The notes below the pieces were generated by a model. That model saw nothing but the letters and a program-made list of their open reading frames with translations, ran no database searches and was not told the DNA's origin. From positions 248,001 to 312,000 of the forward strand of contig NZ_JANIBO010000001.1 in assembly GCF_024506395.1 (NCBI RefSeq): a DNA stretch of 64,000 nt, read 5' to 3'. Source of the DNA: Cetobacterium sp. NK01. Its GTDB lineage: Bacteria > Fusobacteriota > Fusobacteriia > Fusobacteriales > Fusobacteriaceae. How positions within the stretch are numbered: position 1 is the first letter of the stretch; each line of letters begins with the position of its first letter. Shown piece by piece: positions 24,160 through 34,259 of this stretch. Position numbers and translations under genes: made by a program.

Positions 24160-24486
24160 TTATTCTACTTTTATTTTTAAAAGCATTTTTTTATGTCCTG
24201 ATCCACATGGAACTGTACATTTCCCTGTATAATCTCCAACTTTAGTAGGTTTTATCTCCACTGATTCTGGCTTTCCTGGAGATGCTTCTAGATTAAATCC
24301 TAGCTCTTTTGACCCAAGTCCATGATCGCCATCTTTACTTACTAAAGTTAATTTTACAGGTTCATCTTTTTTTAAAACAATCTCTTTTGGCTCATATCCC
24401 CAATCATAAGCTACAATTTGAATCTCTTTTCCTAAAAGTGTTGCTGATAAAAGTGTACATAGTCCTAAAATTTTAAATATCTTCAT
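24160..24486 (-). CDS. Periplasmic cupredoxin with CuA-type copper motif
   Basis: 108 residues. A signal peptide (residues 1-19, ending TLLGK) precedes a single cupredoxin beta-sandwich. Copper ligands follow the CuA spacing: His55, then Cys90-x3-Cys94-x3-His98-x2-Met101, as in cytochrome c oxidase subunit II and nitrous-oxide reductase. It lacks the N-terminal transmembrane hairpin of CoxB, so it is a soluble exported protein. It may handle electrons or copper in the periplasm. No oxidase gene is nearby, so copper binding or delivery is as likely as respiration. AGGAGG precedes the ATG. Confidence 0.82.
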   Translation of the reverse strand: MKIFKILGLCTLLSATLLGKEIQIVAYDWGYEPKEIVLKKDEPVKLTLVSKDGDHGLGSKELGFNLEASPGKPESVEIKPTKVGDYTGKCTVPCGSGHKKMLLKIKVE

Positions 24487-24916: not shown

Positions 24917-27691
24917 TTAAATATTTTTTAGTTTCCTCTGCGGTTTACCAAAATAATATCCTTGACCGTAGCTAACACCTATTTTTTTTAAAAATTCAAA
25001 TTGCTCTTTTTCTTCTATCCCTTCTGCTACAACTTTAAGCTTTAAACTTTTTATCATATTATTCAAACCTAAATAAACATTTTTTCCTCTTTCACTGTCG
25101 TCATTAATACTTGAAATTAAAGACTTATCAAACTTAACGACATCTATTGGAAGAGTTGTAAGTAAACCTACTGTTGAATATCCCGCTGTAAAGTCATCAA
25201 TAGATATATAAATTCCCATTTTTCTAAATTTATTTAATTTTTCTACAACATCCTCTACATCCTCTAAAAATGTACTCTCTGTTATCTCTATTTCAAGATT
25301 GTCTCCGCTTAAAGAATATTTTCCTAACAAATCAAATATATACTTTACAACATCTTTTCTCTTTAAAGTCTCAATAGACATATTAAAAGACATTCTAAAA
25401 TCTTTCTCTATTAATTTCTCTGTAAGAAGTTCTTTAGTCTTTTTTATAGCCTCTTCTGCTATTTTATAGTCAATTTTATAAATTAAACCCAAAGTTTCAC
25501 TTATAGGAATAAATTCATCTGGATATATCTGACCTAATAATTTATTCTCCCATCTTGTCAAAGCCTCTGCACCTATTATTCTACCATTTTTCAAATCATA
25601 TTTTTCTTGAAATACTGGATAAAACTCTGTATCAATAGATATATTCATCATATTTTCTATTATTTTTTTTCTTTTATTTATTTTTATAAAGTCATATGTA
25701 GCTTCCTCTGACCAATTCTTTTTCATTTTCTTTGCTGAATACATTGCAAGATCTGCATACTTAAAAGCATAACTCATAGAGTCCTTCTCTCTTTTTATAT
25801 AATATCCCAGGCTAAATGATATATTATATTTTTTCATCAATTCTGAATTTTTAAAAAGAGTTTCTAATTTTTTTATTTTAAATTTTATGTTCACTGAATA
25901 ACAAGAGAATATATAAAACTCATCTCCTGAAATTCTAAAGATATAATCATTTTTAAAAGAGTCTTTTAAAAGTTTTCCAACTTCCACTAAAACTTGGTCT
26001 CCGTAGTCATGTCCATATGTATCATTTAAAGTTTTAAAATTATTTAGGTCCAAAAGAAGAGTACATCCTGACAAATTACTATTCTTTTTGCAAAACTCAT
26101 TAAAAAGCCTTCTACTATAAAGACCTGTTAATTCATCTTTCAATAGTTCATTATTTTTCTTCTTATGTATTATAACTTTAAAACTTTGGTAAGCTACTAG
26201 TATAAGTAAAATCAAACAGCTTGAAATGACTAAACTGATTAATTTTTTATGTTTTTCTTGTTCATGTAATATCTCTTTTTTTCTATTTAAATCCGATATC
26301 TTTAAAATGTCTTTTAAATCAACCATTTCCAATATAGCTTTATTTAAAATATCCCTTAAAACTACCTTATCTTTAGCCAAGGCAAGATTTATTGGCACAC
26401 TTTCAAATATTTTAATATTATATTTTATTTTATCATAAATATCTGAATTTAATGATAGTATTGCTGTTAATCTATTATTTTTTAAATCTGCAATCATTCT
26501 ATCTCTATTTGAATAAACTTTAATACTATCTTTTAAATAGTGATCTTTAGCAACACTTTCTTCTATAGAATTTTTTATAACACCAATTTTTCTTTTCTTT
26601 AAAGAGTTTTTTAAATTTTCTATTTGATAAACATTTAAATCATATATTTTTTTAGTAAATATAAACTTTTTTTCCCTTTCTGCTGTTTTAGAAAGAGTGA
26701 GTATATTTACCTCTCCATTATTAAAACTTTCATAGACATTTGTCCATTCTAATTTTTTTAAACTCTCCTCTTGAACTATATTAATACCTAACTTTTTAAA
26801 TAAACAATTTAATAAACTTGGTAAAACTCCAACATATTTTTTATCTTTAAAAGAATAACTACTTACATTTTCAATATTTCCATAAGCTATTTTTAAAGGA
26901 CTTAAATTTTCTAAGTAATATTTCTCTTCCGCTGTTAAGGAGTTTAAAAATTTATTTTTAAAGACAAACTCTCTACGTGCTTTTAACCAATCATCTATTC
27001 TTTTGTTATATTTTTCCTCTAATGCTTTATCTATTATATCTTTTAATTTTTCATGCTCTTTTCTTATTGCTATTGATGTTTCTGGAAGTCTACTTATATT
27101 TAATTTATTAGACTCTCCAACTGCGTTTAAGTTTGTATCTGCTATATATTTTACATTTTGTGTATTCACATCATCAACACGTATTATTTTCATATTATAA
27201 AGTTCATTTTTTCTTTTATATCTTTCTAAAAACTTTTCATAAATTGTATTTTTAGTTACATATACCTCTACTTTATTTAAATCTTCTGGTGCATTTAGAT
27301 TTTTATCTTTAGATATTACAACTAGCTCTTCATCTAAAATTTTATTTGAAAAAACTGCAAACTTTTCTCTATTTTCAGTTTTAGTTAAAAAATTTATTAT
27401 GTCTATATTATGATTTTTAAACTCATCATAAATTGTATTCCAATTTCCTTTTTTTATTTCTATATTAAGTTGTAAATAATCCCTCAATAATTCCTCTATA
27501 ATATCATTTAACGATTCATTTCCTATTTTATCATCAGCAAAATAATCATTTTTTATTCCTAATATTAATTTTTTTTCTCTTATCTTTTCAAGATATTTTT
27601 TCTCGCTTTGATTTTTAGGAATATATATGTCCATTGAGACTATAAATTTAAAAATTAAAAAGAAAACTAACAGTATTCTTTTTATAATCAT
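24917..27691 (-). CDS. Sensor with two SBP domains, GGDEF and EAL
   Basis: 924 residues. A signal peptide is followed by two tandem periplasmic family-3 solute-binding modules (about 35-235 and 260-470), a transmembrane helix at 484-506, a GGDEF domain with SGDEF at 588-592, and an EAL domain starting EALTRW at 709-714. The EAL side looks complete: FNMS, EITEST, DDFTAGYS, VKFDKS, AEGIEE and GYYFGKP. The first G of GGDEF is S, a variant seen in both active and inactive cyclases. It likely senses amino acids or similar solutes and changes cyclic-di-GMP, with phosphodiesterase activity the safer guess. A thioredoxin-fold gene lies 16 bp upstream. Confidence 0.9.
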   Translation of the reverse strand: MIIKRILLVFFLIFKFIVSMDIYIPKNQSEKKYLEKIREKKLILGIKNDYFADDKIGNESLNDIIEELLRDYLQLNIEIKKGNWNTIYDEFKNHNIDIINFLTKTENREKFAVFSNKILDEELVVISKDKNLNAPEDLNKVEVYVTKNTIYEKFLERYKRKNELYNMKIIRVDDVNTQNVKYIADTNLNAVGESNKLNISRLPETSIAIRKEHEKLKDIIDKALEEKYNKRIDDWLKARREFVFKNKFLNSLTAEEKYYLENLSPLKIAYGNIENVSSYSFKDKKYVGVLPSLLNCLFKKLGINIVQEESLKKLEWTNVYESFNNGEVNILTLSKTAEREKKFIFTKKIYDLNVYQIENLKNSLKKRKIGVIKNSIEESVAKDHYLKDSIKVYSNRDRMIADLKNNRLTAILSLNSDIYDKIKYNIKIFESVPINLALAKDKVVLRDILNKAILEMVDLKDILKISDLNRKKEILHEQEKHKKLISLVISSCLILLILVAYQSFKVIIHKKKNNELLKDELTGLYSRRLFNEFCKKNSNLSGCTLLLDLNNFKTLNDTYGHDYGDQVLVEVGKLLKDSFKNDYIFRISGDEFYIFSCYSVNIKFKIKKLETLFKNSELMKKYNISFSLGYYIKREKDSMSYAFKYADLAMYSAKKMKKNWSEEATYDFIKINKRKKIIENMMNISIDTEFYPVFQEKYDLKNGRIIGAEALTRWENKLLGQIYPDEFIPISETLGLIYKIDYKIAEEAIKKTKELLTEKLIEKDFRMSFNMSIETLKRKDVVKYIFDLLGKYSLSGDNLEIEITESTFLEDVEDVVEKLNKFRKMGIYISIDDFTAGYSTVGLLTTLPIDVVKFDKSLISSINDDSERGKNVYLGLNNMIKSLKLKVVAEGIEEKEQFEFLKKIGVSYGQGYYFGKPQRKLKNI

Positions 27692-27707: not shown

Positions 27708-28013
27708 TTATAAGATTTTTTCTAAAAATTTTTCAAGTTCATTTTTTATTTCAGAAATAGAAAAAAATCTTGCTCTTTTTAGTATCTCTATCCCATCATA
27801 ATAAATAATTAAAACAGGTGTTATAAAAACTAAGAATTCTCCTGCCACTTCAGGATTCTTTTTTATATCTATTGGAAAAAATTTAGAATTTTTATACTCT
27901 TTAGAAAGCTCCTCTAACCTAGGGAGCATAACACCATCAACTCAGCAACTTTTCGTTTCATCATAGATATATACAAATCCAAATTTCTCATTTTTCATAT
28001 CTTTATAGTTCAT
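27708..28013 (-). CDS. Thioredoxin-fold protein with in-frame UGA (candidate selenoprotein)
   Basis: Read through codon 24 (TGA at 27944-27942), this gives 101 residues: MNYKDMKNEKFGFVYIYDE-x-KSC, then U, then VDGVMLPRLEELSKEY and a thioredoxin fold with a cis-Pro loop (FITPVLIIY). The site reads Cys-Sec-Val-Asp where relatives would have CxxC. The start at 28013 has a strong GGGAGGGG site; the first ATG after the UGA (27929) has none. A SECIS-like hairpin begins 15 nt after the UGA. Alternatives are a nonsense mutation or a base-call error. If it is not selenocysteine, the gene is a pseudogene. Confidence 0.62.
27908..27927 (-). promoter_or_regulatory. Candidate bacterial SECIS hairpin
   Basis: GCTCC-CT pairs with AG-A-GGAGC (7 bp, one bulged A) closing loop AGGTT (27920-27916). 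The loop starts 21 nt after the UGA and has G in its second position, within the published spacing of 16-37 nt and the loop-G rule for bacterial SECIS elements. Confidence 0.5.
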
Positions 28014-28053
28014 ATTCCCCTCCCTATAAATGATTTAATAGTTTTTTCTTTAA

Positions 28054-28205: not shown

Positions 28206-29255
28206 ATGACATTTAATAAAAAAATATTGGGTTCATTAGTTTTAACAACACTTTTAACTAGTTGTGGTTCTTCTGAAAAACCTGTATCTAAAGAAAATAA
28301 AACAAAGGAGATCACAGTTTATACTGCTTTAGAAAATGAGCAAATTCCTGAGTATCTTCAATCTTTTAAAGAGCAATACCCTAACATAAAACTTAATATT
28401 GTTAGAGAATCAACAGGTGTTATCGTTTCAAGAGTTTTAGCTGAAAAAGATAATCCACAAGCTGATGTTATCTGGGGAACTGCTGCTACTGGTCTTTTAG
28501 TTTTAGATGAAGCTAATCTTTTAAAAGAATATTCTCCAAAAGATATTGAAAAAATAAATCCAAAATTTAAAGATAACACAGGTAAAGATCCTAAATGGGT
28601 TGGAAACAATGCTTGGATGACAGCTATTTCAGTTAATACTATTGAAATGAAAAAACTAGGACTAGAGGAACCTAAAAATTTCTCAGATCTTTTAAAACCT
28701 GAATATAAAGGTTTAATCTCTATGCCTAACCCAGCTTCTTCTGGAACTGGATTTCTAACAGTCTCTGCTTTAGTTCAACTTTTAGGAGAGGAAAAAGCTT
28801 GGGAATATATGGCTAGCTTAGATAATAATATGGGTGTTTATACTCACTCAGGATCTAAACCTGCTAAAACAGCTGCATCTGGAGAGTATCCAATTGGAAT
28901 ATCTTATGGATATCCTGGAATAAAAATAAAAAATGATGGAGCTCCTATAAATGTTTATTTCCCTAGTGAAGGTTCTGGTTGGGATTCTGAAGCTAATGCT
29001 TTAATAAATAAAAAGAATATCAAAGATGAAGCTAAGGTATTTTTAGATTGGGCTATCTCTGAAGATGCTATGAAAATGTACGCTAAATCTTATGCTATTG
29101 TTTCTAGAGATATCAATGTTGCTCCACCAAAGGGATTTCCTGAAAATCCTATCACTCAACTAATTGCTAATGATTTCTCTTGGGCTGCTGCTAACAAAGA
29201 GCGTATTTTGACTACTTGGGAAACAAAATTTGGTTCTAAAACTGAGAAAAAATAA
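28206..29255 (+). CDS. phnS: 2-Aminoethylphosphonate ABC transporter, binding lipoprotein
   Basis: 349 residues with a lipoprotein signal (lipobox LLTSC, Cys near 20) and a type-II periplasmic binding fold: ITVYTALENEQIPEYL, AEKDNPQADVIWG and GIGYG-type hinge (GISYGYPG). These match the AEP-binding family related to FbpA iron-binding proteins. It captures 2-aminoethylphosphonate at the outer face of the inner membrane and hands it to the ATPase and permease encoded next. The ATG follows GGGGTG. A terminator-like hairpin separates it from phnT, which may allow more binding protein than transporter to be made. Confidence 0.88.
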   Translation: MTFNKKILGSLVLTTLLTSCGSSEKPVSKENKTKEITVYTALENEQIPEYLQSFKEQYPNIKLNIVRESTGVIVSRVLAEKDNPQADVIWGTAATGLLVLDEANLLKEYSPKDIEKINPKFKDNTGKDPKWVGNNAWMTAISVNTIEMKKLGLEEPKNFSDLLKPEYKGLISMPNPASSGTGFLTVSALVQLLGEEKAWEYMASLDNNMGVYTHSGSKPAKTAASGEYPIGISYGYPGIKIKNDGAPINVYFPSEGSGWDSEANALINKKNIKDEAKVFLDWAISEDAMKMYAKSYAIVSRDINVAPPKGFPENPITQLIANDFSWAAANKERILTTWETKFGSKTEKK

Positions 29256-29267
29256 TATCTTTTTTAT

Positions 29268-29295
29268 AAAGCTACAGAGAAATCTGTAGCTTTTT
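29268..29295 (+). terminator. Hairpin between phnS and phnT
   Basis: Stem GCTACAGA / TCTGTAGC with GAAA loop (29271-29278 with 29283-29290), extended by AAA/TTT, then a T-rich run. It would reduce read-through from phnS to the operon. Confidence 0.8.
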
Positions 29296-29298
29296 ATT

Positions 29299-29359
29299 TT
29301 TTACAATTTCTTAACCTTTGTTTTACTCTTAGTTTACTTGGTTTTAATTTGTTTTTAAC
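29299..29359 (+). promoter_or_regulatory. 11-bp phased repeats before phnT
   Basis: Related hexamers lie at 29299 (TTTTAC), 29310 (CTTAAC), 29321 (TTTTAC), 29332 (GTTTAC), 29343 and 29354 (TTTAAC), all in 11-bp register, as before phnS. A second direct repeat, TTAGATGATG, lies at 29360 and 29380. Confidence 0.5.
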
Positions 29360-29406
29360 TTAGATGATGTAATATATCTTTAGATGATGAAAACGAGGAG
29401 GAGTTA

Positions 29407-30384
29407 ATGAGTTATTTAAAGATAAAAAATGTTGAAAAAACTTTTGGTAAGTTTAAAGCATTGAACAATATAAATTTTGAAATAGAAAGAGGAGAGTTTA
29501 TCTGTTTTTTAGGTCCATCTGGTTGTGGTAAAACAACACTTCTTAGAATTATTGCTGGACTTGAAAATGTCGATAGTGGTGAAATTTTTTTAAAGGATGA
29601 AAACATTACAAAAAAGCATCCAGCTAAGAGAAATATGTCAATCGTTTTCCAATCTTATGCTCTTTTTCCAAATTTAACAGTTGGAGAAAATATTGCTTAC
29701 GGAATGAAAAATAAAAAAATACCAAAGGATATAATTCAAAAGAAAATAGATGAGTCACTTGAGCTTGTTGGTTTAAGAGGTCAAGAGAATAAATATCCAA
29801 ATGAACTTTCAGGAGGTCAGCAGCAAAGAGTTGCACTTGCTAGAGCAATCTCTTACTCGCCAGATATTCTTTTGTTAGATGAGCCTCTTTCAGCTCTTGA
29901 TGCTAAAGTAAGAGAAAAACTTAGAAATGATATAAAAAATCTTCAAAAAAAACTTGGAATTACAACTATAATGGTTACTCATGATCAAGAGGAAGCTCTT
30001 TCAATGTCAGATAGAATAATCGTTATGGATAATGCTAAAGTTGTTCAAGTAGGAACACCTCAAGATATTTATGAGAAGCCAGCTAACAATTTCATTGGAG
30101 ATTTTATTGGAAAAGTTAATAAGTTTGAAATCAATGGAACAAAAGTTATGGCTAGACCAGAGGATATCTCTCTTGCTGATGAGCAAACAGATAACTTCTT
30201 TATGGGAACATTAGAGTCTTGGGAGTATATGGGATCGTACTATAGATTAAAAGTTAATAAAAAGAACTACATTATTGAAGTTGATATCTGTAGAAATAAA
30301 ATTGCTCATATTCCATTAAAAAAAGATCAACACATCTTTCTTAAAGTTGAAAGAACTTTAGGAGGAGGAGTTGAATGGAGCTAG
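29407..30384 (+). CDS. phnT: 2-Aminoethylphosphonate ABC transporter ATPase
   Basis: 325-residue ABC ATPase. Walker A GPSGCGKTT, Q-loop FQSYALFPN, signature LSGGQQQR, Walker B LLLDEPLSALD and switch His in VTHDQEEA are all present. A C-terminal TOBE-like region starts near 240. It powers phosphonate uptake with the permease and phnS. The start has GAGGAGG upstream. It overlaps the permease gene by 10 bp, so the two are probably co-translated. Confidence 0.9.
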   Translation: MSYLKIKNVEKTFGKFKALNNINFEIERGEFICFLGPSGCGKTTLLRIIAGLENVDSGEIFLKDENITKKHPAKRNMSIVFQSYALFPNLTVGENIAYGMKNKKIPKDIIQKKIDESLELVGLRGQENKYPNELSGGQQQRVALARAISYSPDILLLDEPLSALDAKVREKLRNDIKNLQKKLGITTIMVTHDQEEALSMSDRIIVMDNAKVVQVGTPQDIYEKPANNFIGDFIGKVNKFEINGTKVMARPEDISLADEQTDNFFMGTLESWEYMGSYYRLKVNKKNYIIEVDICRNKIAHIPLKKDQHIFLKVERTLGGGVEWS

Positions 30385-32096
30385 TTTTTAAAAAAACTGA
30401 AAAACTTCTTTCAGAAAAAGTTAGAGATATTATCGTTTGGGGAATTGCAATCTTTTTCGTTGTTACTCTTCTTTTTCCACTTATCTCTTTAAGTATAAAA
30501 GCAACAGAGGACAATGCTGGAAACTTCATTGGTCTACAAAATTTTATTCAATATCTTACTAGCCCTGGAGTAGTATCCTCATTTTTCAATACAGTTAAAA
30601 TAGCAACTTTAACTATGGTTATAACTTTAATTTTGGGATTTGGTTACTCTTATGGAATGGCTAGAAGCAATATAAAGGGAAAAGGTATTTTAAAATTTTT
30701 AATTCTTCTACCTATATTTGCTCCAACTATGCTACATGGTATCTCACTAGTTTATCTATTTGGAAGAATGGGAGTTATAACTACTGGATTCTTCGGTAGA
30801 TTTCCTAATCTTGCAACAGATATAAATCTATACGGTTCAACTGGTATTGTAATTAGTGAAGTTATATATACTTTACCTCAAGCTTACTTAATTATCTCTA
30901 TGGCACTACAAAATAGTGACTATAGACTCTATGAAGCTGCTAAAACTCTTGGAACAAGTAAAGTAAAGCAATTTTTTACAATAACTCTTCCATCTTGTAA
31001 ATATGCTGTTTTTTCCACAGCTACAGTTTCTTTTATTCTTGCATTCACTGACTTCGGAGCACCTAAAGTTGTTGGTGGAAACTATAATGTTTTAGCTACA
31101 GATATTTATAAGCAAGTTATTGGACAACAAAATTTAGGAAGAGGTGCAGTTGTTAGCATTCTTCTGCTTATTCCTGCAGTAATCTCATTTTTCTTTGAAA
31201 AATCTTTAGAGAAAAAACAAAGAGATACCTTTAATGCAAAATCTATGAACTATCGAATTGAAAATTCAACTGGTAGAGATATTTTCTTCTACAGTTTCTG
31301 TTGGTTTATTGGTCTTGGTATATTAGGACTTTTTATTACAGCAGGTGTCGCTTCTTTTGTTAAGATGTGGCCATATAACTTTGAACTTACTTTAAATAAC
31401 TATAAATTCTTTGACTTTAATGGTGGAGCTTTCCATTTTTATAAAAACTCAATAACTATAGCAATATTATCATCTATCTTTGGAACTATTATTGCATATC
31501 TTGGAGCATATATATGTTTAAAAACTGAGAGTTTAACTAAGCTTAGAAATGTTATTAAGTTTTTCGCAATAGTACCTTTAGCCCTTCCAGGAATGGTTTT
31601 AGGTTTAGGATATATCTTTTTCTTCAATATGAACTACATTAGAATTCCACTAATTGGTTGGGTAAATAATCCATTCAATAGTTTATATGGAACTCTTTGG
31701 ATTTTAGTTCTTGTAAACATTGTTCACTTTTTCTCAGTTGCCTTTATGACAGCGTCAACATCTTTGAAAAAGTTAGATAAAGAGTTTGAAATTGTATCTC
31801 TATCTATGGGTGTTCCTTGGTATAAAACATTTTTCAATGTAACTCTACCACTTACTAAACACACTATTGGAGAGATATTCATATATTACTTTGTAAACTG
31901 TATGACTACAGTTTCAGCAGCTGTTTTCCTATATACTTCAAAAACAACTCTTGCATCTATTGCAATGGTTAACCTTGATGAAGTTGGAGATCAAGCTAAA
32001 GCAGCAGCAATGGGAATTTTAATTGTTGGAACAAATCTTTTAGTAAAAACAATTTATGAAATAATTAAAAAAAGAAATTTTGGGAGGAATAAATAA
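30375..32096 (+). CDS. 2-Aminoethylphosphonate ABC transporter permease (fused)
   Basis: 573 residues with about twelve membrane helices: two complete BinPDT-type permease halves in one chain, as in FbpB-like iron transporters. Each half carries an EAA-like loop, EAAKTLGTSKVKQFFTITLP in the first and a cognate EIVSLSMGVPWYKTFFNVTL in the second. Other bacteria often split these as PhnU and PhnV. The gene starts inside phnT and ends directly against phnX (stop overlapping by one base). Confidence 0.88.
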   Translation: MELVFKKTEKLLSEKVRDIIVWGIAIFFVVTLLFPLISLSIKATEDNAGNFIGLQNFIQYLTSPGVVSSFFNTVKIATLTMVITLILGFGYSYGMARSNIKGKGILKFLILLPIFAPTMLHGISLVYLFGRMGVITTGFFGRFPNLATDINLYGSTGIVISEVIYTLPQAYLIISMALQNSDYRLYEAAKTLGTSKVKQFFTITLPSCKYAVFSTATVSFILAFTDFGAPKVVGGNYNVLATDIYKQVIGQQNLGRGAVVSILLLIPAVISFFFEKSLEKKQRDTFNAKSMNYRIENSTGRDIFFYSFCWFIGLGILGLFITAGVASFVKMWPYNFELTLNNYKFFDFNGGAFHFYKNSITIAILSSIFGTIIAYLGAYICLKTESLTKLRNVIKFFAIVPLALPGMVLGLGYIFFFNMNYIRIPLIGWVNNPFNSLYGTLWILVLVNIVHFFSVAFMTASTSLKKLDKEFEIVSLSMGVPWYKTFFNVTLPLTKHTIGEIFIYYFVNCMTTVSAAVFLYTSKTTLASIAMVNLDEVGDQAKAAAMGILIVGTNLLVKTIYEIIKKRNFGRNK

Positions 32097-32902
32097 TGAG
32101 AAAAGAGATTAAGGCAGTTATATTTGATTGGGCAGGTACTACAGTAGATTATGGATGTTTCGCACCACTTGATGTTTTTGTTCAAGTTTTTAAAGAGATT
32201 GGTATTGAGATTACTTATGAAGAAGCTAGAAAACCTATGGGAATGTTAAAAATAGATCACATAAAAGCACTATTAAAGATGGAAAGAATACACTCTTTAT
32301 GGTTAGAAAAATTTAATAGAGATTACACTATGGAGGATATTAACTCTTTATACGAAAGATTTGAAAAAGTTTTATTCGCTTCTTTAGAAAACTTTTCTGA
32401 ACCTGTTCCTGGAATGTTGGATCTTCAAAAAGAGTTAAGAGAGAGAGGATTAAAAATTGGAAGCACAACTGGATATACAAAAGAGATGTTAGATATTGTT
32501 GCTCCAAAAGCTAAAGCTTTTGGATACTGTCCAGATTTTAGAATCACATCAACTGAAGTTCCTGCTGGTAGACCATATCCATATATGATTTATCAAAATA
32601 TGATTACCTTAGCAATTCCAAATAGGAACTCTATTATAAAAATTGGAGATACAACTGTTGATATGAAAGAGGGTAAAAATGCTGGTGTTTGGACTGTTGG
32701 TATCTTAAAGGGTGGAAGTGAACTTGGTCTTTCACAAAAAGAGGTTGAAACTATGGACCATGCTCAGTTAAAAAAATTAATGGATGCAACTGCAAAGAGA
32801 TTATACTCTGCTGGAGCTGACTATGTTGTTGAGCAAGTTGGTGATTTACCACATATAATTGATGTTATAAATGCTAGAATGAATTCTGAAGAGGTTATTT
32901 AA
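32096..32902 (+). CDS. phnX: Phosphonoacetaldehyde hydrolase (phosphonatase)
   Basis: 268-residue HAD-superfamily enzyme. The nucleophile Asp11 lies in DWAGTTVD and a Schiff-base lysine near Lys52 in RKPMGMLKIDH, both diagnostic of PhnX. GDTTVDMKEGKNAG is the HAD motif IV region. It splits phosphonoacetaldehyde to acetaldehyde and phosphate. It follows the permease without a gap and precedes the PbfA-like gene by 1 bp, so substrate import and breakdown are one unit. Confidence 0.95.
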   Translation: MRKEIKAVIFDWAGTTVDYGCFAPLDVFVQVFKEIGIEITYEEARKPMGMLKIDHIKALLKMERIHSLWLEKFNRDYTMEDINSLYERFEKVLFASLENFSEPVPGMLDLQKELRERGLKIGSTTGYTKEMLDIVAPKAKAFGYCPDFRITSTEVPAGRPYPYMIYQNMITLAIPNRNSIIKIGDTTVDMKEGKNAGVWTVGILKGGSELGLSQKEVETMDHAQLKKLMDATAKRLYSAGADYVVEQVGDLPHIIDVINARMNSEEVI

Positions 32903-32903
32903 A

Positions 32904-34259
32904 ATGAATAAAATTACATCTGAAGGGGATGTGAATACCTCTTCAAATCGTAAAAATTGGCAAGATAAAAATATAAACTATGAAACTAGTTGTGTTCTTA
33001 GAGATGATGAAGATATCTTTCTTCATCAATCTCTTTCAACTCCTTGTTTAAATGTTTTAAAAAAATCTAAGGGTATCTACCTAGAAGATATCTCTGGAAA
33101 AATCTATATGGATTTTCATGGAAATAATGTACACCAAGTTGGATTTGGAAATGAAGACGTTAAAAATGCCATTATTAATGAGATGGAAGAACTTCCATTT
33201 TCTCCTAGAAGATATACAAATAACTCTGCTATAATTTTAGCTCAAAAGCTTTCTGATAAAACAAATGGTGTTTTAAATAAAGTTCTATTTTCACCAGGAG
33301 CAACCTCTTCTATTGGAATAGCAATGAAACTAGCTAGACTTGTAACTAGAAAAGATGGTTTTCTATCTTTTTGGGACTCTTTCCATGGAGCTTCAATAGA
33401 TGCTATCTCTTTAGGAGGAACTGCTCATTTTAGAAATGGTATTGGAAGTCTTCTAACTGGGTGCGAGCATTTAATCCCTTATAATAGCTATAGACCCATT
33501 TTTGATGAAGATACTTTTTTAACTATTTTAGATTATACTTTAGAAAAGCATGGAGATATTGCAGCTTTTTTTATGGAAACTATTAGAAATACTGAAGTGG
33601 AGATTCCATCATATAAACTTATGAAAGGAATAAGAGATATCTGTACTAAACACAATACCCTTTTAGTTTTAGATGAAACTGCAATTGCTATGGGAAGAAC
33701 TGGAAAATTCTTCGCCTTTGAACACTATGGTATTGACCCTGATATTGTTGTCATTGGAAAAGGACTTGGCGGTGGAATATTTCCAATCTCTGCTCTTTTA
33801 ACAAAAGATGAATTTAATATTGGTCAATATACATCTTTAGGACACTATACTCATGAGAAATCCTCTGTTGGATGTGCTGCTGCTAATGCTGCCATAGATT
33901 TTATTGATAACAATAATATTTTAGAAAAAACATCTAATATGGAGAAATTTATTTTAGATAGATTAAATATATTAAGAAATAAATATGAAATTATCGGTGA
34001 TGTAAGAGCTATTGGACTACTCTTTGCAATTGAACTTGTAAGAGATAGAAAAACAAAAGAAAAAGCTGAATCTGAAGCTGATAAAATTCTTTATAATTGC
34101 CTTGATTTAGGTCTTAGTTTCAAAGTTTCTAGTGGAATATTAACACTATCACCACCACTTATTATTGAAAAACATGAACTTGAAAAAGCTCTTGAAATTC
34201 TTGAAAAAAGCATAAAAATTGAAAATATAAAACTATTTGGAGGAAACAACAATGAATAA
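32904..34259 (+). CDS. PbfA-like PLP enzyme for hydroxylated aminophosphonate
   Basis: 451-residue class-III aminotransferase fold. PLP Lys286 is in VIGKGLGGG and DETAIAMGR (Asp near 257) holds the cofactor ring. In phosphonate operons this subgroup is PbfA, reported to eliminate ammonia from (R)-1-hydroxy-2-aminoethylphosphonate and yield phosphonoacetaldehyde. That would widen the substrate range beyond 2-aminoethylphosphonate. An ordinary transaminase cannot be ruled out from sequence alone, but the position between phnX and phnW is the one where PbfA is found. Confidence 0.8.
   Translation: MNKITSEGDVNTSSNRKNWQDKNINYETSCVLRDDEDIFLHQSLSTPCLNVLKKSKGIYLEDISGKIYMDFHGNNVHQVGFGNEDVKNAIINEMEELPFSPRRYTNNSAIILAQKLSDKTNGVLNKVLFSPGATSSIGIAMKLARLVTRKDGFLSFWDSFHGASIDAISLGGTAHFRNGIGSLLTGCEHLIPYNSYRPIFDEDTFLTILDYTLEKHGDIAAFFMETIRNTEVEIPSYKLMKGIRDICTKHNTLLVLDETAIAMGRTGKFFAFEHYGIDPDIVVIGKGLGGGIFPISALLTKDEFNIGQYTSLGHYTHEKSSVGCAAANAAIDFIDNNNILEKTSNMEKFILDRLNILRNKYEIIGDVRAIGLLFAIELVRDRKTKEKAESEADKILYNCLDLGLSFKVSSGILTLSPPLIIEKHELEKALEILEKSIKIENIKLFGGNNNE

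Follow-up and report, generated by a model that had tools for sequence, protein, structure and literature searches.

We predict that a gene in Cetobacterium sp. NK01 encodes a selenoprotein, with selenocysteine (Sec) very probably inserted at an in-frame UGA (codon 24) by way of a SECIS hairpin downstream of it. The product would be a thioredoxin-like protein in which U-V-D-G stands where its Cys-type relatives have C-x-V-C. The window (the whole stretch of DNA that was analysed, 64,000 nucleotides) lies within a 1.9-Mb contig, and the genome is 3.1 Mb in size.

Gene and product

The following features of the gene were located in the window:

27708..28013, minus strand: predicted selenoprotein coding sequence, thioredoxin-like, 101 aa if the TGA is read as Sec, with the TAA stop at 27710..27708
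28024..28017, minus strand: Shine-Dalgarno sequence GGGAGGGG, read directly
28013..28011, minus strand: ATG start codon, read from the sequence
27944..27942, minus strand: in-frame UGA, codon 24 (predicted to be read as Sec), TGA in all eight copies
27927..27908, minus strand: predicted SECIS hairpin, stem GCUCCCU/AG(A)GGAGC, loop AGGUU (GGU if an A-U pair forms)

A preliminary description of this DNA had placed a strong ribosome-binding site at 28013. Its strength is borne out, but that position is the start codon; the Shine-Dalgarno sequence lies at 28024..28017, and the same or nearly the same sequence occurs 5' of the three closest copies of the gene. Also as described there, codon 24 of the window copy is a UGA right after a Cys: the TGA directly follows codon 23, TGC (Cys23), and V-D-G comes directly after it. 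The frame beyond the TGA is open until the TAA, and with TGA as Sec it would yield MNYKDMKNEKFGFVYIYDETKSC-U-VDGVMLPRLEEL... (101 aa). The view that thioredoxin-type sequence continues past the UGA likewise agrees with the match to PF00085 (thioredoxin), although this is marginal (24.0 bits; cut-off 23.5). PF00085 is the only Pfam family matched by the window protein at E <= 1; the glutathione peroxidase (PF00255) and peroxiredoxin (PF00578) families gave no match at that threshold, and no selenoprotein model of Pfam was matched.

Conservation and distribution

A protein search of 61 genomes returned a match at E <= 0.001 in 47 of them. The eight best matches, the window's own copy included, come from eight genomes of two genera and are 52 to 99% identical to the query. 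Each has a single TGA inside, at the same codon, and no other stop in the match. The residue that homologues carry at this codon had been proposed as a check on the Sec reading, and it is UGA in 8/8 close copies, never Trp, Gly or another stop. In the next-best matches, this site reads C-x-V-C or C-x-I-C without a UGA. One further TGA flagged in the search (genome G053) is the ordinary stop at the end of the gene, and flags for TAA come from more distant matches.

The distribution survey covers genomes of the Fusobacteriota. When 98 genomes of this phylum were searched with a profile, 49 gave a match at E <= 1e-10, with the UGA form in the same eight. The tree (19 rows, Sec column masked) unites the eight UGA copies in one group with support 100/100. 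selA exceeds its cut-off in 52 of the 98 genomes; all eight genomes with the UGA form have it, versus 9 of the 26 whose Cys form matches at E <= 1e-26 (our own count; the genomes are related). The chance of finding selA in all eight would be about 0.001 (hand calculation) if the genomes were independent, which they are not. The gene is absent at that threshold from five other members of the genus (G001, G003, G007, G010 and G011), of which two have incomplete assemblies (82% and 67%).

A scan of genome contigs with one protein gave a single locus, L047, which to judge by length and place is on the same contig as the L019 copy. Viral contigs yielded no relative, the phage search gave two weak Listeria records, and in PHROGs there was only a weak thioredoxin match. 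Among plasmids there were seven relatives, each carrying the annotation thioredoxin family protein; the one from Ilyobacter is the Cys-type protein compared below.

The hairpin downstream of the UGA

The hairpin had been reported to have a 5-nt AGGUU loop and to begin 15 nt after the UGA, within bacterial SECIS spacing. We find the same: its first base is the 15th nucleotide after the UGA, and its geometry is that of a bacterial SECIS. The model, in the parts of PMC13188914 consulted, comprises a loop of 3-9 nt with a G in the first two loop positions, a stem of 4-16 bp, a distance of 16-37 nt from the UGA and an MFE <= -7.5 kcal/mol. In the window copy the loop is GGU (AGGUU), the stem has 8 (7) bp and the distance is 22 (21) nt. 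All eight copies fit the geometry and six of the eight fit the energy rule, with values of -9.4 kcal/mol in five, -9.0 in one, and -7.3 (L022) and -6.3 (L024) in the two that are weaker than -7.5 kcal/mol.

The window hairpin folds at -9.4 kcal/mol (RNAfold), and 4 of 200 dinucleotide shuffles fold as well (z -2.29); a longer 56-nt piece is no more stable than its own shuffles (z +0.71). Thus, folding of a single sequence is insufficient on its own, and the comparative evidence decides. The hairpin is present in 8/8 UGA copies versus 0/11 Cys-type relatives (none in ten, and one at -2.4 kcal/mol). The hairpin codons (U+5..U+12) show no synonymous change in the six closest copies (pS 0.000), compared with a pS of 0.486 upstream of the UGA and 0.442 beyond the hairpin. 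Codon choice was compared with usage in the 39 long ORFs of the window. CTC makes up 16 of 1846 Leu codons there, yet the hairpin Leu is CTC in 7/8 copies, and AGG makes up 32 of 512 Arg codons, yet the loop Arg is AGG in 8/8. When the codons were redrawn synonymously from the window's usage, 1 of 400 sequences folded as well.

Two copies (L023 and L024) have a stem altered on both arms with the pairing kept. Between them, a C-G pair is exchanged for U-A, synonymously on both sides; relative to the other six, both lack the 3' bulged A and carry coupled Pro-to-Ser and Glu-to-Ser changes. By this comparison among copies, the downstream hairpin is a SECIS element. A structure model built on it (R1) recovered only its own site from its own genome (next E 1.98) and did not find selD; with no second genomic site, even at selD, R1 is specific to this gene. 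No Rfam family matched near a gathering score.

Selenocysteine machinery of the host

The preliminary description saw no Sec machinery gene in the window, and there is none, nor any tRNA gene; the Sec genes lie elsewhere on the same contig. The genome-wide check that it called for, covering selA, selB, selC and selD, recovered all four over their cut-offs, with selD-selA-selB and selC grouped near C1:1823-1831 kb on the window's own contig. The tRNA-Sec gene selC reaches 68.6 bits, above the gathering score of 47 that none of the 18 other matches attains. selB scores 284.8 bits against a cut-off of 242.25, and profiles for SelB (285.2 bits), SelD (383.8 bits) and SelA (578.4 bits) are likewise exceeded at their cut-offs. 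In a 12-kb stretch of this region (L048), selD, selA and selB are consecutive and selC is nearby. The first of these is itself a UGA gene:

L048 9883-10908, minus strand: selD, with the UGA in GGUASK, translation read

Its product begins MKLLLDRCSIGGUASK, and the in-frame UGA is followed by a hairpin (AGGACC-GGA-GGUCCU). Since selD also has an in-frame UGA, UGA is apparently used for Sec at least twice in this genome. An ordinary ORF finder begins selD at an internal GTG. Near selC and selB we also identified a SirA/TusA-like gene (YedF-like, by eye) and a small gene of no known family (L048 3885-4475 and 6110-6592, minus strand). A search for GrdA gave no match, and its positive control gave none either.

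From this anatomy we predict Sec insertion by SelB at codon 24. Ribosomes would reach the UGA, SelB with Sec-tRNA(Sec) would be held there by the hairpin at 27927..27908, and selenocysteine would be inserted. The product would be a 101-residue cytosolic protein.

Active site

The motif had been described as C-U-x-D, and in that form it is rejected, as the position before Sec varies (C in five copies; T, N and K in one each), whereas U-V-D-G is invariant in 8/8. The three copies with T, N or K before Sec have no Cys anywhere, and the other five have one vicinal Cys. A CxxC active site is therefore absent, U-V-D-G being accompanied by 0 or 1 Cys per protein, and so is UxxC, no Cys following Sec in any of the eight. 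Residues invariant among the eight include F13, Y15, I16, K21, U24-V25-D26-G27, L30, R32, E34, G58-E59-F60, T65-P66 and R82-F83-F84. T65-P66, placed by alignment, is what we take to be the thioredoxin cis-Pro segment; it is invariant in the eight, and its Pro is invariant in all 19 aligned proteins.

Most known selenoproteins have Sec on a Cys column of their relatives. Here the homologues have no Cys at the Sec column: set against their C-x-V-C, residue 23 falls on the first Cys, V25 on the V and D26 on the second Cys, which puts Sec on the first x. MAFFT, hhalign (profile-profile, probability 99.8) and HMMER against PDB 4euy and 6mos all give this placement. The ancestral C-x-V-C may have been dismantled and Sec may have arisen one position over, not replacing the catalytic Cys, a reconstruction whose chances we regard as evenly balanced. 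If true, an Asp occupies the place of the resolving Cys, and the sole chalcogen nucleophile is one selenium, three species being Cys-free.

Compared with the Cys-type relatives, the loop before Sec has two extra residues and could compensate for the shift in structural position. Sec might then stand in for the catalytic Cys at the N-terminal end of CxxC, the usual nucleophile of the thioredoxin fold, with the one-column displacement an alignment effect of the insertion. We consider this a serious possibility but lean against it, since all three alignment methods put residue 23 on the first Cys and since it needs one extra insertion and one extra deletion. An AlphaFold model with two sequences had a mean pLDDT of 47.5.

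Predicted function

The likeliest role is that of a one-selenol redox enzyme, either a peroxidase or a mixed-selenenylsulfide reductase, and to this we give roughly even credence. A peroxide or disulfide would be attacked by the selenolate, which an external thiol would then regenerate; a reductant from outside is predicted because the protein has no resolving Cys. This reductant could be another protein or a small molecule, and Asp26 may tune or protonate the selenol. We did not find gshF (glutathione synthesis) in three of the eight UGA genomes, so glutathione is unlikely as a universal partner, and it was rejected in that role.

It is unlikely, in our view, that the selenol instead binds or carries a metal (with Asp26) or carries selenium for SelD without acting as a redox catalyst. 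The protein does lack a second Cys, Asp26 is invariant two residues after Sec, and the thioredoxin system is among the selenium routes to SelD proposed in the parts of PMC13188914 consulted. Against such a role, none of the genes next to the UGA gene was recognised as one for metal or for selenium delivery, and the thioredoxin-type cis-proline Thr-Pro is invariant.

Two gene contexts were seen by eye. A Cys-type relative (L025, genome G019) adjoins a gshF-type gene, and a gshF match lies on the same contig. The UGA gene of genome G005 (L022) is divergent to a glutaredoxin-like gene, which is followed by ribonucleotide reductase.

Other readings of the UGA codon

A stem-loop 3' of a stop codon can raise readthrough in general, and the hairpin might be a mere stimulator of readthrough without Sec, through near-cognate Trp or a tuned leaky stop. 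This is very improbable given that selA occurs in all eight genomes, that the hairpin has bacterial SECIS geometry, that codon 24 is never UAA or UAG and that relatives have no Trp at the UGA column. Hardly credible is a true stop at the UGA with an internal restart at or near Met29, which would yield a 23-aa peptide plus a truncated protein. The window copy does have ATG at codon 29, but this codon is GTG in another copy (L019). Coding selection also acts on the stretch that precedes the UGA (pN/pS 0.35), which has a strong Shine-Dalgarno sequence, and a protein begun at the restart would be without the first strand and the active site. A nonsense mutation, pseudogene or sequencing error in a dead thioredoxin-like gene, as an in-frame stop in a short gene whose relatives have no Cys at that column might suggest, has a negligible chance, being refuted by conservation of the same UGA in eight species-level genomes of two genera, by purifying selection past it (pN/pS 0.23) and by hairpin codons without synonymous change.

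All three were rejected on this evidence. Evolution is of the coding type on both sides of the UGA, and after it dN < dS in 28/28 pairs. The preliminary description had left the choice between Sec and mutation to be decided; the conserved UGA, the hairpin and the Sec machinery strongly support Sec. From these and the flanking coding sequence, with the hairpin re-paired among copies, we infer that Sec is inserted in vivo.

Gene neighbourhood

One gene follows closely in the same direction:

24917..27691, minus strand: gene for an SBP_bac_3 (x2)-GGDEF-EAL protein, 16 bases after the selenoprotein stop

The two genes are probably co-transcribed, which is not needed for the Sec claim. The UGA gene lies directly before a GGDEF-EAL gene in five of the eight UGA genomes, and in a sixth it adjoins a relative in the opposite direction. 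GGDEF-EAL relatives also occur in five genomes without the selenoprotein gene (G003, G007, G010, G011 and G031), so the adjacency may be mere history, and a fixed functional link was rejected. Cetobacterium-type genomes encode several paralogues with two SBP_bac_3 domains and GGDEF-EAL, with up to five matches at E <= 1e-100 per genome.

Elsewhere in the window, 24160-24486 (minus strand) encodes a small secreted-looking protein with CTVPCGSGHKKM, whose match to cytochrome c oxidase subunit II (CoxB 47.7 bits, below the cut-off of 147.7) is confined to the CuA-type part at the C-terminus. A CuA-type domain is odd in a fermentative bacterial group. A phosphonate-use cluster at 28206-34259 (plus strand) comprises genes for a substrate-binding protein, ATPase, permease, PhnX (353.7 bits) and a PbfA-type (R)-1-hydroxy-2-aminoethylphosphonate ammonia-lyase (647.2 bits), the last two both over cut-off.

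Relatives and implications

The Cys-type protein of Ilyobacter polytropus (L026; NC_014633.1, 527526..527819) is 42% identical over its length, shares the cis-Pro region and the GxF and RFF motifs, and belongs to the group next to the Sec clade. It scores 41.7 bits against PF00085. Unlike the UGA gene product, it has a C-S-V-C active site and a loop two residues shorter, and its gene has neither UGA nor hairpin. The best relatives of solved structure, by sequence (Sec-only profile), are PDB 4euy (an uncharacterized protein; E 2e-10) and 6mos (a thioredoxin; E 4e-10), which have C-x-V-C where the Sec family has x-U-V-D.

The 2026 inventory of selenoproteins (PMC13188914), in its Table 1, holds 119 families or subfamilies, with PF00085 there only as the Sec thioredoxin UxxC. 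That protein also belongs to the Pfam thioredoxin family and has Sec in the active-site region, but here the motif is U-V-D-G, without a resolving Cys and with Sec off the Cys column. Other thioredoxin-like selenoproteins of unusual motif in the table, Trx-like Sec.1 (CxU), Sec.2 (UxC), VPGUxxT and UXX-star, resemble ours in kind but differ in motif, and no NCBIfam selenoprotein model matched at E <= 0.01. In a scan of eight members against NCBIfam 20.0, three families matched at that threshold, none of them a selenoprotein model. The whole of Table 1 has no U-V-D-G or UxD entry in the thioredoxin fold. In the literature searched on selenoproteins of Cetobacterium and Fusobacteria, we found no report of such a protein, and none is named in the parts consulted of PMC5029168, PMC9312934 and PMC12013277. 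In the text consulted, PMC13188914 treats a different Sec position or motif as a distinct subfamily, and by this rule the UVDG protein would be a new subfamily of thioredoxin-like selenoproteins. With Sec where relatives have no Cys, it looks like a subfamily that has been overlooked.

The UVDG family would escape selenoprotein finders that require homologues with a Cys at the UGA, and annotation that ends at the UGA would leave the gene out or cut it short. If Sec did arise beside the Cys column, the protein would be an exception to the Cys-to-Sec exchange rule that underlies homology-based finders, and it would be a minimal single-selenol enzyme. Should Sec stand outside the CxxC pattern and without a Cys partner, the protein would offer a natural test of a lone selenol in the thioredoxin fold. 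For Cetobacterium-type bacteria, the gene would provide a selenoprotein in addition to SelD.
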